NCBI RefSeq assembly: GCF_000021965.1
Contig: NC_011832.1
Span: 2,087,242-2,151,241, forward strand
Length of the DNA: 64,000 bases
Reading direction: 5' to 3'
Source: Methanosphaerula palustris E1-9c
GTDB lineage: Archaea > Halobacteriota > Methanomicrobia > Methanomicrobiales > Methanospirillaceae
This document shows positions 2,414-25,402 of this stretch, one piece after another. Numbering within the stretch: position 1 is the stretch's first letter; every line of letters begins with the position of its first letter. The notes under the pieces are model-generated. The model was not told where the DNA came from and ran no database searches. It saw only the letters and a list, made by a program, of their open reading frames with translations. A program made the position numbers and the translations under genes.

Positions 2414-4456
2414 ATGTCGAGAACCATGTTAAGCGAGGCCGAGGGATACGCCCTCCTCAGACAGTACGATGTGCCGGTCCCCGGTTTTCAGATCGTCACC
2501 AGTGCAAAGGATGCAGGCAAGGCAGCAACAGAGATCGGATTCCCTGTTGTGATGAAGGTGATCTCCCCAGAGATCATCCATAAGAGCGATGCCGGCGGCG
2601 TCATCACCGGGATCGGATCCAAAGAGCAGGCAGAAGCAGCTTTTGCTCAGATCCATGCCGGGGCAAAGGCCTACAACCCCGACGCGACGGTCACCGGCAT
2701 CATCGTCGAAGAGCAGGCAGCCCCGGGACTGGAATTGATCATCGGTGGCAAGACAGATGCAGCGTTCGGCAAGGTGCTGACCTTCGGGATGGGCGGAACA
2801 CTTGTCGAACTGATGAAAGACGTGACCCTCAGGATCCTCCCGATCAGCGAGGATGAGATCAGGTGCATGATCCGTGAGATCGAGGCCTACCCACTGATCA
2901 GCGGCTACCGCGGATCACACCCCCGTGACGAACAGGCCCTCGTGAAAGTGATCACAGACGTCGCACGGTTCTTTGGCGAGAACCTGAATGTTGTAGAGTT
3001 CGATATCAACCCGTTCAGACTCTACGAGACAGGAGGATGTGCAGTCGACGCCAGGATCATCACCGATGACACAGTGGTTGAAGAGAAGATCGAGGAACGG
3101 ATACAGGTCCCGCTCGAATACTTTGCCCCGCGATCAGTGGCCGTGATCGGAGCATCGCAGGACACCTCCAAGATGGGGTACGCGGTGATGCACAACCTGC
3201 TCCACTTCCCAGGACAGCTCTATCCAGTCAACAACAAGCGGAGTGAGATCCAGGGATTGAAGGCTTACCCGACCATCACAGCCATCCCAAACCCTGTCGA
3301 CATGGCCGTGATCACGGTGCCGGCCAACCATGTGCCGCAGGTGATCGAGGAGTGCGGACAGAAGGGCGTCCCGATGGCCGTGATCATCACCGCCGGTTTC
3401 AAGGAGATGGGCGACATGGGCAAGGCCCTCGAGGACCGGGTCGTTGAGATCGCCAGACGATATGGGATCCGGATCATCGGCCCGAACTGTCTCGGCCTGA
3501 TCGTCCCGCCCCGCGGTCTCGACACCACCTACGTGCACGAGTCCCCGAACCCGGGGACGGTCGCGTTCATCTCTCAGAGCGGTGCCATCATCAACACGGT
3601 CGTGGACTGGTCACTCTCCCATGATATCGGCTTCTCTGCCGTCATATCAGTCGGGAACCAGGCAGACCTGAACTTCCTCGACTATCTGAAGTTCGTCCAG
3701 CACGACCCCAAGACCAAGGCTGTAATCCTGTACATCGAGGAGATCACCGATGGCAAGGCCTTCATGAAGGTGGTCAGCGAGGTTACCAAGTACAAACCGG
3801 TGGTCGCGATAAAGTCCGGATCCTCGCAGCGGGGGCAGAAGGCAGCCTCCTCTCACACCGGCTCGCTCTCAGGTTCCTACGAGGTCTACATGGAGGCATT
3901 CAGGCAGGCCGGTGTGATCCCGGTTCACACCCTGACCGGAGCCTTTCAGGTAGCTGAGATGCTCGCCTCACCCAAGGGCTATCCCCAGGGCAAGCGTGCG
4001 GTCGTGATCACCAATGCAGGAGGGTTCGCCGTTCTCTCCTCAGACTATGCTGAGCGTTACGGCATCGACCTGATTGACCTGCCGACCGAGATGGTCGACG
4101 AAATGAACGAATTTCTCCCAGAGTTCTGGAACAAGGGCAACCCAATCGATCTCCTCGGAGATGCCACCGACAAGCGGTTCGGACGGGTCTTCGACATGCT
4201 CGTCAAGTACCAGCATATCTGGGACATCGCCTTTGTGGTCGGGTTCCCGAACCTGGTGCTCTCATCCGATCAGTTGGCCAACGAGATGGTAAAGTTCTCA
4301 GGCAAGACCGACAAGATCATCATTGGGACTCTGCTCGGTGGCGATTCGATGATACGCGGCAGGGATATCCTGCGCGAACACCAGATCCCTTCGTTCGAGG
4401 AGCTGGACTTCACGTTCAGGGTCATGGGCCGGGTCATCTGGCAGCGGTGCAGGTAA
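2414..4456 (+). CDS. acd: ADP-forming acetyl/acyl-CoA synthetase, fused beta-alpha
   Basis: A 680-residue fusion. The N-terminal ATP-grasp (beta) domain, about residues 1-220, contains GFPVVMKVISPEIIHKSDAGG. The C-terminal alpha part begins near PRSVAVIGASQDTSKMGYAV, a Rossmann CoA-binding domain, followed by the succinyl-CoA-ligase-like domain with SSHTGSLSGSYEVY, where the histidine would be phosphorylated. The enzyme interconverts acyl-CoA + ADP + Pi with acid + CoA + ATP. The order beta then alpha is one of several known arrangements. The ATG at 2414 is chosen because GAGG lies 5 nt upstream; in-frame ATG codons 7-9 codons earlier are possible. A short acid such as acetate is the likely substrate but is not shown. 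Confidence 0.88.
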   Translation: MSRTMLSEAEGYALLRQYDVPVPGFQIVTSAKDAGKAATEIGFPVVMKVISPEIIHKSDAGGVITGIGSKEQAEAAFAQIHAGAKAYNPDATVTGIIVEEQAAPGLELIIGGKTDAAFGKVLTFGMGGTLVELMKDVTLRILPISEDEIRCMIREIEAYPLISGYRGSHPRDEQALVKVITDVARFFGENLNVVEFDINPFRLYETGGCAVDARIITDDTVVEEKIEERIQVPLEYFAPRSVAVIGASQDTSKMGYAVMHNLLHFPGQLYPVNNKRSEIQGLKAYPTITAIPNPVDMAVITVPANHVPQVIEECGQKGVPMAVIITAGFKEMGDMGKALEDRVVEIARRYGIRIIGPNCLGLIVPPRGLDTTYVHESPNPGTVAFISQSGAIINTVVDWSLSHDIGFSAVISVGNQADLNFLDYLKFVQHDPKTKAVILYIEEITDGKAFMKVVSEVTKYKPVVAIKSGSSQRGQKAASSHTGSLSGSYEVYMEAFRQAGVIPVHTLTGAFQVAEMLASPKGYPQGKRAVVITNAGGFAVLSSDYAERYGIDLIDLPTEMVDEMNEFLPEFWNKGNPIDLLGDATDKRFGRVFDMLVKYQHIWDIAFVVGFPNLVLSSDQLANEMVKFSGKTDKIIIGTLLGGDSMIRGRDILREHQIPSFEELDFTFRVMGRVIWQRCR

Positions 4457-4695
4457 GCCGGGCAGGACAGCACCGGCTCAAGGTGCAGATCCCTGGAGAT
4501 ATCCCTTTATTTTTGGTTTTACTGATTTTCCAGGAGAAATACAAAAGAATAAACATCATATACACGAACTGCTCAAATAATAAATGAAGAGCCGGGCAGT
4601 TCAGAGTGCCCGGTCATCATGCCGGGGCTTTGGGCACAGTGTTTCCTGATCATGCTGCAGACCTGCGACAGACGGACTGCATAGGCGAGCATCGT

Positions 4696-20448: not shown

Positions 20449-21090
20449 TCATTTCAAAGCCGCAAGGCTGGCGAAGTCGATCGCATTGACGATGGAATCA
20501 TAGTCCGCCTTCGTCCCGTGGTCGACCGAGACATAGATCATGAACCGGTCGTTCACCGAGATCCATGCCCCATAGGTATCCGGCTTCGTATAGACCTCCC
20601 AGGCCGGGTTCCCCTTCACCTGAGTGCTTCTGAAATACCCGTCAGTGCTCTCCATCGACTGGAACCCACTCCAACTGCTCTTGAATCCGACATCTTGATT
20701 GGCAGTGTCCTGATAGGTGATACTGGCCGTGGTATCCTTGTTCGTAGCGCTCTTATAACTCCCCGTCGCCATCGTCCAGGGGCGGCCGTTCGTGTCCGTC
20801 ATCGTCAATCCGTTCGGCTTTTCATCGATTACCCAGCCTGCAGGTGCCGCCGGAATCAGGGCCACCATCTTGTCGTAGTCCACAGCCTGGACAACCGTGC
20901 CGGTGCCGGTCGTCGATGATCCGCTTGTCCCGGCTGTCGAGGTCGACTGCAATGGTGCCGTGGTCGCAACCGTGTTCGTCGTACTCTGCTGTCCAGACGT
21001 CGACGAGGTACACCCGGAGACCAGGACCAGACCGAGGATCAGCAGGACCAGGAGAGGAACGGATGCATGTTCCTTGTGAATGATCTTCAT
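20449..21090 (-). CDS. Lipoprotein of unknown function, paralogue A
   Basis: A 213-residue lipoprotein with signal sequence and lipobox LVLVSGC, a Ser/Thr-rich linker, then a globular domain starting near VDYDKMVALIPAAPAGWV. The domain carries KPNGLTMTDTNGRPWTMATG, ASITYQDTANQDVGF and DRFMIYVSVDHGTKADYDS. The neighbouring gene at 21433-22101 encodes a close paralogue in which these blocks are nearly identical. ATG 21090 is chosen for GGAGG 5 nt upstream. I do not recognise the family; the fold might be a PsbP- or DUF-type envelope domain, but that is a guess. The protein is expected outside the cytoplasmic membrane, anchored by lipid. Confidence 0.8.
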   Translation of the reverse strand: MKIIHKEHASVPLLVLLILGLVLVSGCTSSTSGQQSTTNTVATTAPLQSTSTAGTSGSSTTGTGTVVQAVDYDKMVALIPAAPAGWVIDEKPNGLTMTDTNGRPWTMATGSYKSATNKDTTASITYQDTANQDVGFKSSWSGFQSMESTDGYFRSTQVKGNPAWEVYTKPDTYGAWISVNDRFMIYVSVDHGTKADYDSIVNAIDFASLAALK

Positions 21091-21133
21091 ACAAACCTCC
21101 AATGGTTATAGACCCTCCATAGACATACCAAGT

Positions 21134-21432: not shown

Positions 21433-22101
21433 TCATTTCAGAGCCGCAATGCCGGCGAAATCGATCGCATTGATGATGGAGTCATAATCAGCCTTCGTCC
21501 CGTGATCGACCGAGACATAGATCATGAACCGGTCATTCACCGAGACCCATGCACCATAGGAATCGGGCTTGGTGAAGACCTCCCAGGCAGGATTCCCCTT
21601 CACCTGGGTGCTCTTGAAGGAGCCGTCCGAGTTCTCCACCGCATGGAAATTCTTCCAGTTGCTCCTGAACCCGACATCCTGATTGGCAGTGTCCTGATAG
21701 GTGATACTGGCCGTGGTATTCTTGTTCGTAGTGCTCGTATAACTCCCTTTTACCATTGTCCAGGGATGACCTTCCGTCTCTGTCATGGTAAATCCGGTCG
21801 GCTTATCAGTCATCACCCAGCCGGCAGGGGCCGCGGGAAGCAGGGCTATCATCCTGGTGGAATCCACGGACTGGTTGCCCGTGCCTGAACTGGCGCCGGA
21901 AACCGAGGTGGAACCGATCGCCTGGGCCGTCGTTCCGGCCGCCGAGGTCGACTGCGATGATGCCATGGTCGTGACCGCAGTGGTTGTCTTCTGTTGATCT
22001 GATGGTGACGAGGTGCACCCCGAGACCAGCACCAGGCCGATGATCAGCAGAACCAGCATGAGAGCCGGACGTGATACCTGATTCTTTTGAACGATTGTCA
22101 T
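21433..22101 (-). CDS. Lipoprotein of unknown function, paralogue B
   Basis: A 222-residue lipoprotein with signal peptide and lipobox (IIGLVLVSGC), a longer Ser/Thr/Ala linker than paralogue A, and the same C-terminal domain: ALLPAAPAGWVMTDKPTGF, HPWTMVKGSYTSTTNKNTTA, SITYQDTANQDVGFRSNW, KGNPAWEVFTKPDSYGAWVS and DRFMIYVSVDHGTKADYDS. The signal-linker region has diverged much more than the domain, as expected for purifying selection on the folded part. The start at 22101 has GGAGG 6 nt upstream. Function unknown; it is transcribed separately from A, each having its own promoter. Confidence 0.8.
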   Translation of the reverse strand: MTIVQKNQVSRPALMLVLLIIGLVLVSGCTSSPSDQQKTTTAVTTMASSQSTSAAGTTAQAIGSTSVSGASSGTGNQSVDSTRMIALLPAAPAGWVMTDKPTGFTMTETEGHPWTMVKGSYTSTTNKNTTASITYQDTANQDVGFRSNWKNFHAVENSDGSFKSTQVKGNPAWEVFTKPDSYGAWVSVNDRFMIYVSVDHGTKADYDSIINAIDFAGIAALK

Positions 22102-22144
22102 TCGAACCTCCACATACTAGCGTCAATTCGTCGATAGTTCATGA

Positions 22145-22363: not shown

Positions 22364-23032
22364 TCAGACGATCTCAGCTGAGGTGATCGTCACCGGCTGC
22401 ACCGGGCGATCGTTCGTGTCGGTCTTGACCTTCGCAATCGCGTCGACGACATCCATCCCACTGACAACCGTGCCGAACGCAGGGTGCTTCGTATCCAGGT
22501 AGTTGTTGTTCACCAGATTGATGAAGAACTGGCTGCCACCGGTGTTGGGACCGGCGTTGGCCATCGCGATGGTCCCGCGATCGTTCTTGTTGTGATCGGT
22601 GAACTCGTCAGGGATCGTATACCCCGGACCGCCGGTGCCGTCACCCTTCGGGTCGCCGCCCTGGATCATGAACCCGGCGATCACCCGGTGGAAGGTCAGG
22701 TTGTTGTAGAACCCTTTCTGGACAAGTTTTTCGAAGTTCCCGGTCGTGACCGGCATATCCCCGTACAGCTGGATCGTGATATCACCCATCGAGGTGTGCA
22801 GGATGGCCTTCTTCCCGGTCAGGTTGGCCGCAGAACTCGTTCCATTGGTTGTATTCTTTGCAGAGGTGGTCGCTGCGGCTGCAGTGGTGACTGCAGTGGC
22901 GACGGTGGTGGTCGCCTGACCAGAGACCGAAGAGGTCTGTTGCTGGCTCTGGGGGGTACTCGTGCATCCGGCGATGAAGAGGGATGCTGCGAGGATCAGC
23001 CCGACACAGAGCAGAATATGTGCTCGTCTCAT
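22364..23032 (-). CDS. Cyclophilin-type peptidyl-prolyl isomerase, lipoprotein form
   Basis: A 222-residue cyclophilin exported as a lipoprotein: MRRAHILLCVGLILAASLFIAGC gives the signal and lipobox, followed by a Thr/Ala-rich linker to about residue 70. The catalytic domain shows FHRVIAGFMIQGGDPKGDGTGGPGY, GTIAMANAGPNTGGSQFFIN and HPAFGTVVSGMDVVDAI, retaining the active-site Arg, Phe and Gln residues. It would speed proline isomerisation of proteins outside the membrane. The ATG at 23032 is selected because upstream codons are not signal-like. A near-copy lacking the signal follows upstream at 23121-23588. Confidence 0.93.
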   Translation of the reverse strand: MRRAHILLCVGLILAASLFIAGCTSTPQSQQQTSSVSGQATTTVATAVTTAAAATTSAKNTTNGTSSAANLTGKKAILHTSMGDITIQLYGDMPVTTGNFEKLVQKGFYNNLTFHRVIAGFMIQGGDPKGDGTGGPGYTIPDEFTDHNKNDRGTIAMANAGPNTGGSQFFINLVNNNYLDTKHPAFGTVVSGMDVVDAIAKVKTDTNDRPVQPVTITSAEIV

Positions 23033-23050
23033 CCATACAAGCTCACCGCC

Positions 23051-23063
23051 ATCCCTATATGAG
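23051..23063 (-). promoter_or_regulatory. TATA-like element of the lipoprotein cyclophilin gene
   Basis: On the minus strand this reads CTCATATAGGGAT, about 20-30 nt before the ATG at 23032. The identical 13-mer occurs at 23685-23697 before the second cyclophilin, embedded in a longer alignable segment, so it is part of the duplicated unit. Confidence 0.5.
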
Positions 23064-23120
23064 GATTGCGGCAACGAAATAATTCCAAAAAAAAGAAGGC
23101 TTCCCCTCGGATTGATGCGA

Positions 23121-23588
23121 TCAGATGATCTCTGCCGTGACGATCGTCACCGGGGTCTGCGGGCGGTCGCTCCGGTCGGTCCGGACCTTTGCGATCGCGT
23201 CGATGACCTCCATCCCGCTGACGACCTTTCCAAAGACCGGGTGCTTCTGGTCCAGGAAGTTGTTGTTCACCAGGTTGATGAAGAACTGGCTGCCACCGGT
23301 GTTGGGGCCGGCATTGGCCATCGAGATGGTCCCACGGTCGTTCTTATTGTGGGCCGTGAACTCATCAGGGATCACATACCCGGGCCCGCCGGTGCCGTCA
23401 CCCTTCGGGTCGCCGCCCTGGATCATGAACCCGTCGATCACCCGGTGAAAGGTCACGTTGTTATAGTAGCCTTTCTGCACGAGAGACTCGAAATTTCCTG
23501 CGGTCACCGGCATATCCGCATCCAGCTGGATGGTCACATCGCCCATCGAGGTATGCAGAACAGCCTTCTTGCCTGTCTCATTTGCCAT
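23121..23588 (-). CDS. Cyclophilin-type peptidyl-prolyl isomerase, cytoplasmic form
   Basis: A 155-residue cyclophilin with no signal peptide. From GKKAVLHTSMGDVTIQL onward it is almost the same as the lipoprotein cyclophilin: FHRVIDGFMIQGGDPKGDG, ISMANAGPNTGGSQFFIN, HPVFGKVVSGMEVIDAI. The ATG at 23588 has GGAG about 10 nt upstream. The reading frame stays open for 67 more codons upstream. Codons 26 to 1 before this ATG align with the start of the exported copy, where its ATG has become CTG and the hydrophobic core is missing. This copy therefore seems to be a duplicate redirected to the cytoplasm. Confidence 0.9.
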   Translation of the reverse strand: MANETGKKAVLHTSMGDVTIQLDADMPVTAGNFESLVQKGYYNNVTFHRVIDGFMIQGGDPKGDGTGGPGYVIPDEFTAHNKNDRGTISMANAGPNTGGSQFFINLVNNNFLDQKHPVFGKVVSGMEVIDAIAKVRTDRSDRPQTPVTIVTAEII

Positions 23589-23684
23589 TGGTATCAAACT
23601 CCATGAATACTTACTGTGGTGTGAGTTCCGTTCGACGCAAGGCCTCTGGGTCTGCGCTCGTCTCAGCCTTACAAACTCATCATC

Positions 23685-23697
23685 ATCCCTATATGAG
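23685..23697 (-). promoter_or_regulatory. TATA-like element of the cytoplasmic cyclophilin gene
   Basis: Minus-strand CTCATATAGGGAT, identical to the element before the lipoprotein cyclophilin. Here it lies about 100 nt before the ATG because the relict signal-sequence region is now 5' untranslated. Confidence 0.45.
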
Positions 23698-23800
23698 AGT
23701 TGTGGCGGTACGTGACCAGAGAAAAAAGACCCGGACAGAGAGGCGATCAGAGGAGGAAGATTGAGAAGGAACCAGAACCCACCAATCATAAGGGAGAGAG

Positions 23801-24229
23801 ATGAGGCCTGCCAGGATAGAGATACTGCTGATCGTGATGCTCATCGGGGGCGTTGCGCTTGCCGGGTGCACTGCACAGAAGAGTTCAGACACTACCAGTG
23901 GTGCCGGTGGGGATGCGGCAACCATCTTCGCCCAGGCCGACACCCTCGGCGAACAGGGGAACTACCAGCAGGCCCTGACCGCATACGACCAGGGACTGCA
24001 GATCGATCCAAACAACATCGAAGCGTTGAACGGAAAAGGGGCGACCCTCCGGGCACTCGGACGCGATGACGAGGCGCTGGCTGCATTCACCCGGGCGACC
24101 GAGGTCGATCCATCCTCTGCGCCGTCCTGGATGAACAGGGGCGATGTACTCGAACGGCTCGGCAGAACCACCGAGGCGGATGCGGCCTACAAAAAGGCAA
24201 CAGACCTGGGCGGCACCGCCCAGCAATGA
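23801..24229 (+). CDS. TPR-repeat lipoprotein
   Basis: A 142-residue lipoprotein with signal MRPARIEILLIVMLIGGVAL and lipobox ALAGC at about residue 23. After a short Ser/Gly linker come three tetratricopeptide repeats: ADTLGEQGNYQQALTAYDQG, EALNGKGATLRALGRDDEAL and SWMNRGDVLERLGRTTEADA. It probably acts as a protein-binding scaffold on the outer face of the membrane. The start follows AGGGAGAGAG directly. It is transcribed divergently from the cyclophilin pair, with no partner downstream on its strand. Confidence 0.9.
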   Translation: MRPARIEILLIVMLIGGVALAGCTAQKSSDTTSGAGGDAATIFAQADTLGEQGNYQQALTAYDQGLQIDPNNIEALNGKGATLRALGRDDEALAAFTRATEVDPSSAPSWMNRGDVLERLGRTTEADAAYKKATDLGGTAQQ

Positions 24230-24312: not shown

Positions 24313-24519
24313 TCAATCCGTTACCTGTTCGAGGATGCGTTCAATGTTGTCAATTTTTTTGTGCATGATCTCAACGGTCTGTCTGAGTAAGGCGATCTCC
24401 GTTTTAATATCAGCCAGTTCTGTTCTCCGATCTGATTGAGATCCAAACTGTTTCTCAATCCATTCCTTGAGATCCCGGGTATCTCCCGGATTTATGATAC
24501 CGGTCAGTTGTGTATCCAT
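24313..24519 (-). CDS. Small coiled-coil protein, third gene of HTH operon
   Basis: A 68-residue soluble protein. Residues about 30-68 (RTELADIKTEIALLRQTVEI and HKKIDNIERILEQ) form heptads typical of a coiled coil. Its last residues, DNIERILEQVTD, resemble the end of the upstream membrane protein (EHIERILVNVGE), so the two may pair. GGGGGAG lies about 8 nt before ATG 24519; a GTG at 24528 that overlaps the preceding stop is an alternative. Function unknown. Confidence 0.65.
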   Translation of the reverse strand: MDTQLTGIINPGDTRDLKEWIEKQFGSQSDRRTELADIKTEIALLRQTVEIMHKKIDNIERILEQVTD

Positions 24520-24524
24520 GCATC

Positions 24525-24953
24525 TCACTCCCCCACATTCACAAGAATACGTTCAATATGTTCGAGTTTTTTCTCCATCCCATCCACCTTTTCATTCATA
24601 GCAGCAAGTGTCGCCCCTACCTTTTCCGATTCAGGTTTTTGCGCAACCAGCAGGTCCAGTTTTGCAAGCATCGCGTCCAGGTACGTCTCGATCCACATCT
24701 TAATTCTGGTCACCACCATGTGAATCGCCATAAAAATGAGAATTAACAGGAATACCTGCATGAGAATCGACGCAAGGGTCATCACCATTGAAAGGAGTCC
24801 CTGGCTGGCATTAAATGCAGTCTGATCTTGCTGGTTTGACATCCAGTAAGAACTTGCGATTCCTCCGGCAATGAGCAACCCGAGCAGCAAGGCCGTTAAC
24901 GCAATCACCATCTTCGTTATCCAGTGAAAATCCCGGATCGTTTTGAAATTCAT
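24525..24953 (-). CDS. Membrane protein with cytoplasmic coiled-coil tail, second gene of HTH operon
   Basis: A 142-residue protein with two transmembrane segments: MVIALTALLLGLLIAGGIAS near residues 15-35, and a second hydrophobic stretch around LASILMQVFLLILIFMAIHM near 60-82. A basic-amphipathic region and a C-terminal coiled coil (NEKVDGMEKKLEHIERIL) follow. The start overlaps the stop of the ArsR-like gene as ATGA, and its own stop overlaps the next gene. No known family recognised. It may be a small membrane sensor or scaffold whose tail binds the coiled-coil product encoded next. Confidence 0.7.
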   Translation of the reverse strand: MNFKTIRDFHWITKMVIALTALLLGLLIAGGIASSYWMSNQQDQTAFNASQGLLSMVMTLASILMQVFLLILIFMAIHMVVTRIKMWIETYLDAMLAKLDLLVAQKPESEKVGATLAAMNEKVDGMEKKLEHIERILVNVGE

Positions 24954-25285
24954 CTTCCTCCCCCTTCCAGTTTCTCTATGAGATCCAGATTTAGTACCAG
25001 TTCGAAGGGCACTGCCCTGTAATATCGTTTGAGGTACGGTGGTTCCTGTGCAACGCGATTGGTACCAACAACAAGGCCGGCCTTTTCAAACTGTTTTAAA
25101 TATATGTTCACAAGAGGCCGGGAGACCCCGATCTCTTCGGATATCTCCCTCGCAAACTTTTCTTCGTGGGAGATCGCTTTGAGAATGTTGAGTCGCTGTT
25201 CATTTCCCAAAAAACCCAGAAGTTTTGCCAGTTCGGGAATGGAATTTGGTTCAAACATCCAATGTGTTTGATTATTTTTACACAT
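24950..25285 (-). CDS. ArsR-like winged-helix regulator, first gene of operon
   Basis: A 111-residue winged-helix protein with the segment LGNEQRLNILKAISHEEKFAREISEEIGVSRPLVNIYLKQFEKAGLV, a typical ArsR helix-turn-helix with the recognition helix at SRPLVNIYLKQ. The residues after it (RVAQEPPYLKRYYRAVPFEL) form the wing and a C-terminal helix; no CxC metal site is visible. The first ATG (25285) has no clear Shine-Dalgarno site; ATG 25258 is an alternative. It leads two overlapping genes for a membrane and a coiled-coil protein and probably regulates them. Confidence 0.78.
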   Translation of the reverse strand: MCKNNQTHWMFEPNSIPELAKLLGFLGNEQRLNILKAISHEEKFAREISEEIGVSRPLVNIYLKQFEKAGLVVGTNRVAQEPPYLKRYYRAVPFELVLNLDLIEKLEGGGR

Positions 25286-25402
25286 GATAAATTTTTTGTA
25301 TGTACGATCTGCTCTGATGGTGATCGAAGAAGGAAGACGGGGAGAGAGGGGGTACCAGGGAGAGGTTATGCAACATTCAGTGTTACAAAAAAGGGATCGT
25401 AT

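Follow-up and report, generated by a model that had tools for sequence, protein, structure and literature searches.

What might join a DNA-binding regulator and two small proteins with coiled coils into one genetic unit? Three small ORFs in tandem on the minus strand raise this question at positions 24313-25285 of the window, by which we mean the whole 64,000-nucleotide stretch of Methanosphaerula palustris E1-9c DNA that was analyzed. The host is a methanogen with a genome of 2.92 Mb in a single contig, which its nearest relatives place in the Methanoregulaceae. The ORFs span 25285-24950, 24953-24525 and 24528-24313, and an earlier note on this DNA suggested that they could form a membrane-stress sensor or a toxin-antitoxin-like unit.

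Gene products and a putative operator

All three ORFs are real genes, and purifying selection acts on each of them (pairwise dN/dS 0.06-0.41; 0.1-0.4 for the soluble ORF). Two of the starts had to be moved (Table 1). The start formerly given for the regulator gene, 25285, coincides with base 1 of a conserved box right behind the TATA box and therefore precedes any plausible transcription start; orthologues begin at the equivalent of ATG 25258. The GTG start of the soluble gene, which would create a GTGA overlap, is probably also wrong: relatives begin at the equivalent of ATG 24519, which leaves a gap of ~5 nt after the membrane gene instead of an overlap and gives a protein of 68 aa, the length found in all relatives (68-aa orthologues are present in L066, L067, L068, L074 and L075). 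The ATGA overlap between the regulator gene and the membrane-protein gene holds.

Table 1. Features of the three-gene locus, in window coordinates.
Feature	Positions	Strand	Basis
TATA box AAATTTATC (putative), directly upstream of operator	25286..25296	-	aligned upstream regions; archaeal promoter consensus
Putative autoregulatory operator ATGTGT-N12-ACACAT, 3 nt short of start codon	25262..25285	-	near-invariant, two-fold symmetric
ArsR-like single-domain winged-helix regulator, 102 aa	24950..25258	-	start corrected to ATG 25258; HTH_5 match and orthologues
Membrane protein, 142 aa, two spans and coiled-coil tail	24525..24953	-	hydropathy, orthologues, AF2
Coiled-coil motif at C-terminus of membrane protein, last 34 residues, ...MEKKLEHIERILVNVGE	24528..24629	-	tail profile
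Soluble coiled-coil protein, 68 aa	24313..24519	-	start corrected to ATG 24519; orthologues, tail profile, dN/dS
Coiled-coil motif at C-terminus of soluble protein, ...MHKKIDNIERILEQVTD	24316..24417	-	tail profile

The regulator matches the Pfam HTH_5 model (E 3.2e-9, 37 bits against a cut-off of 22), as expected of a winged-helix member of the ArsR/SmtB superfamily. Its orthologues are 58-84% identical, and an alignment of 16 regulator sequences contains 43 invariant columns. The AF2 model is a winged helix (mean pLDDT 73) whose Foldseek matches include NolR, SmtB, CzrA and Phr, as well as TFE-alpha and PadR; by sequence, the nearest solved relative is Phr of Pyrococcus furiosus (PDB 2p4w, E 1.5e-5). 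The protein lacks Cys as well as an ArsR metal site, in agreement with the earlier note, and it scores 31.8 bits with the ArsR/SmtB metalloregulator model NCBIfam NF033788, for which the cut-off is 55. Metal sensing was rejected, as the ligands are lacking. Almost nothing beyond the winged helix is available for binding a ligand.

Hydropathy places the two spans of the membrane protein at about residues 15-37 and 51-83, and by the positive-inside rule the protein is probably N-in, with a cytoplasmic coiled-coil tail. AF2 predicts helices at residues 3-39, 44-104 and 111-141 with low to moderate confidence (pLDDT 69, pTM 0.32). Neither the membrane nor the soluble protein matches a curated family above cut-off in Pfam or NCBIfam, and nothing convincing was obtained for them in PHROGs or PADLOC. 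Both share a C-terminal motif, about KKxDxIExILEKVSE. The resemblance of the two ends, pointed out before, is statistically significant: a profile built only from membrane-protein tails recovers the soluble tail of the window with E = 1.9e-10 against 4261 background ORFs, and all soluble tails are recovered with E values from 1e-8 to 4e-15. Once family members that the selection rule had missed are set aside, the next-best matches among the background ORFs are mainly Archaeoglobi coil genes located beside their regulators. Judged by these profiles, the soluble protein is a paralogue of the membrane protein's tail. Pairing of the two coils at the membrane, as originally proposed, is plausible given the homology of the tails and their ends in register.

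Upstream of the regulator gene, the layout TATA box, ATGTGT-N12-ACACAT, start codon is common to about 35 loci and near-invariant, with clade-specific arms. The arms covary between clades (TGTGT/ACACA, GGTGT/ACACC, TGC/GCA): among 30 distinct boxes, both-side changes are seen in 8 cells compared to a shuffled mean of 2.4, and none of 500 shuffles scored as high. A slid-partner control also supports the two-fold symmetry. The exact box has one copy in the genome of the window, where boxes with 2-3 mismatches are no commoner than with the reversed control and the six better or palindromic mismatch sites that we inspected lack the TATA-operator-start layout. In 18/18 genomes the box is found at the regulator's own promoter (14 exact, 4 with one mismatch). 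A single further exact site was identified across these genomes (G042:C1:2241040-2241061), and sites with one mismatch elsewhere are about as frequent as in the reversed-pattern control; all regulon searches were carried out with a sequence pattern, not a weight matrix. The box is therefore present essentially once per genome, at the regulator promoter, which points to dedicated autoregulation; this sequence evidence supports control by the regulator of its own operon through the putative operator. Repression, not activation, is suggested because the operator covers the start site, although it could in principle serve an activator, and the palindrome points to a regulator that acts as a homodimer. 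The same operator is absent from Methanosarcinaceae and Archaeoglobi loci.

Association of the regulator with coil genes

Downstream of each regulator orthologue inspected in Methanomicrobiales and Methanoperedens lie one to four coil genes. Thus, the gene order seen in the window is conserved, which was the check put forward in the earlier note, but the three-gene unit described in the earlier note is only one form of a variable array. There is one coil gene per regulator in g21 genomes (two at one g21 locus), two in the majority of the window's relatives, and two to four in Methanoperedens. The encoded proteins have zero to about four spans, and Methanomicrobiales arrays include forms with two membrane coils and forms with a membrane and a soluble coil.

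The distribution of the regulator orthologue is patchy. It is present in 10 of the 61 near genomes, in 3 of the 37 genomes of the window's own family and, at E 1e-15, in 24 of 393 genomes of the phylum, of which two or three carry a more distant relative; Methanoregula, Methanogenium and Methanoperedens are among the carriers. Tails were found in all ten regulator-bearing genomes among the 61 relatives and in two of the 51 that have no regulator, as a lone soluble gene (L247) and a degraded relic (L248). Short tail relics also occur in two Methanoperedens-family genomes. The lone soluble gene (L247:1768-2034, in reverse orientation) has neither a regulator nor a membrane partner. At one locus (L080) an IS element (3706-4499) separates the regulator from the membrane coil gene, which is missing its usual start, and at another (L077:4669-5580) the regulator and two coil genes run straight into an ABC transporter ATPase gene.

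In the clade of the window, neighbors outside the module are not conserved. We rejected a conserved association with the neighboring M50-like peptidase, since its homologue is absent from the loci of relatives. Nearby in the window, minus-strand ORFs 22364-23074 and 23121-23789 are tandem paralogues resembling peptidyl-prolyl isomerases of the cyclophilin type, and the first carries a lipoprotein signal; they adjoin a pair of paralogous lipoproteins (20449-21102, 21433-22113) and a TPR lipoprotein (23801-24229).

A wider-family profile, built with three distant relatives added, finds single-domain regulators in an Archaeoglobi-like family (f9), a Methanosarcinaceae-like family (f8), both clade names being assigned from sequence and context, and others. 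By inspection, the regulator is paired with an adjacent gene encoding a span plus a coil at 73 of the 79 wider-family loci; the unpaired ones are five f10 loci and one at a contig edge. A strict automatic rule pairs 58 of the 79, versus 0 independent matches at 276 other genes, where the rule's 13 control matches are these coil genes again, viewed from the gene on their other side. In f9, the regulator is followed within a few bases by a one-span coil protein of about 70 aa, whereas a one-span coil protein precedes it in f8, in f30 and at four remote f9 loci. The four remote f9 loci are on a long branch, and their kinship is therefore less sure. A well-supported branch (96/89) sets the box-bearing clade apart. 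Since pairing is retained despite the altered gene order, we consider the link between regulator and coil functional and probably physical. In the f10 branch (L211, L229, L233), regulators without a coil adjoin ABC transporter ATPase or permease genes.

Other genes accompany some of these distant pairs. At six f8/f30 loci, the coil gene is preceded by the gene of a secreted protein with abundant His, Tyr or Gly, which resembles PepSY weakly at best and below cut-off, and three f9 loci have secreted or similar proteins upstream. These neighbors point to the envelope. An Archaeoglobi f9 locus (L236) has a DUF4405 cytochrome b-like gene (PF14358, above cut-off) beside the regulator-coil pair. In the Methanoperedens family, L088:3760-4431 and L089:3740-4411 represent a further, distant regulator-coil pair, with a two-domain thioredoxin-like protein after it.

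A model for the module and its alternatives

We propose, with roughly an even chance of being right, that the module is an autorepressor under the control of coiled-coil partners tethered to the membrane, a self-contained membrane-to-DNA signaling device resembling SdpR/SdpI or a split ArnR. A winged-helix repressor homodimer would bind the single operator between the TATA box and the start codon and keep its own operon low. The same operon would make at least one membrane-tethered protein whose cytoplasmic coil carries the fixed C-terminal motif, and a soluble coil, present here, could join the same bundle. A change in the membrane or envelope would alter the coil assembly, which would then capture or release the repressor, so that the operon would be induced until coil proteins were abundant again. 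We infer that coil and regulator make physical contact and that the coils hetero-oligomerize, just as we infer a signal and a physiological task for the coil proteins. The model accounts for the dedicated operator, for strict pairing whichever gene comes first and for the common tail end. Counting against it are the Methanosarcinaceae and Archaeoglobi loci, where the same operator is absent, and the f10 relatives, whose regulators have no coil. The membrane-stress sensor proposed in the earlier note is compatible with it to the extent that the pair adjoins secreted proteins in Methanosarcinaceae and some Archaeoglobi, while the stress signal itself is presumed.

The coil proteins might simply be effectors. 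The regulator would then be an ordinary autorepressor responding to a small ligand or redox cue of its own, and the coils, acting as an envelope scaffold or as a partner of another membrane complex, would never touch it. Putative control of the coil genes by the operator fits this alternative, as do tail proteins that differ in number and topology, the persistence of one soluble gene without the regulator (L247), and a thioredoxin-like or DUF4405 cytochrome b-like gene next to some distant pairs. Retention of the pairing across several families and in both gene orders speaks against it, and so does a regulator that lacks a metal site and has hardly any ligand-binding domain besides the winged helix; on balance we regard it as less likely.

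A toxin-antitoxin-like unit, in which a small membrane-active protein is neutralized and autoregulated by its DNA-binding partner or by the soluble coil, is quite improbable. The module is indeed small, apparently autoregulated and patchy in the window's own family (3/37 genomes), and one locus has an IS between its genes. However, association with mobile elements, which is typical, if not strictly defining, of such systems, was not seen: no relative was found in the viral contigs searched, and the plasmid search gave generic ArsR matches only. One to four tandem coil genes with differing topology, relics and a soluble coil gene surviving alone also argue against it, and PADLOC gave no match to a known membrane toxin. 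We therefore find this part of the earlier suggestion unsupported. Finally, unrelated genes under one promoter could account for outside neighbors that are not conserved in the window's clade, but such a chance operon is scarcely credible given the same pairing at 73/79 loci versus 0/276 controls.

Returning to the autorepressor with tethered coils, it is possible, if somewhat short of an even bet, that the module represents an ancient archaeal class of transmembrane signaling, a split one-component system in which a winged-helix repressor is bound by separate membrane-anchored coils. This class would span Archaeoglobi, Methanosarcinaceae, Methanoperedens, Methanomicrobiales and possibly Thermococci, and the multiplied coil genes of some clades would feed several membrane inputs onto one repressor. 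Few transmembrane signaling systems for sensing the envelope are recognized in Archaea. With its single exact operator, the module is a precise candidate, open to testing, in cultured, partly genetically tractable methanogens, the Methanosarcinaceae carrying a one-span version of it, and genes without a match in any curated family thereby acquire a proposed role.

Comparison with known systems

In line with the earlier note, whose author knew of none, our literature searches yielded no described system with this layout, except for a listing in a 2015 survey, where ArsR, secreted and coiled-coil genes appear with DUF4405 in Thermococcus as the context of a cytochrome b-like protein (PMC5898192). 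The Thermococcus group has the same kinds of parts, likened here on the basis of the gene listing, and is probably the same or a related module, although a regulator-coil module was not recognized there. Phr is likewise an archaeal ArsR-like regulator, but it is a heat-shock regulator of 202 aa, about twice the length of the regulator described here. To our knowledge, Phr has no membrane partner.

ArnR and ArnR1 of Sulfolobus are archaeal membrane-bound one-component regulators in which a DNA-binding domain is linked to transmembrane spans (PMC13286277). ArnR is one fused polypeptide that controls the archaellum, whereas the HTH and the spans are encoded by separate genes at all loci that we inspected and seemingly control only themselves.

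A parallel in logic involves SdpR, a member of the ArsR family. SdpI of Bacillus subtilis sequesters the autorepressor SdpR at the membrane on signal, which induces their own operon (PMC1626106). Both there and here an autorepressor (autorepression being predicted in our case) is encoded together with a membrane protein. SdpI, however, is a polytopic membrane protein and an immunity factor, whereas the module has one to four small coil proteins; the regulator is far under the NCBIfam SdpR cut-off (21 versus 100 bits), and the partner protein has no SdpI-family match in Pfam or NCBIfam. By analogy, the module may thus work like SdpR/SdpI without being a member of that system.
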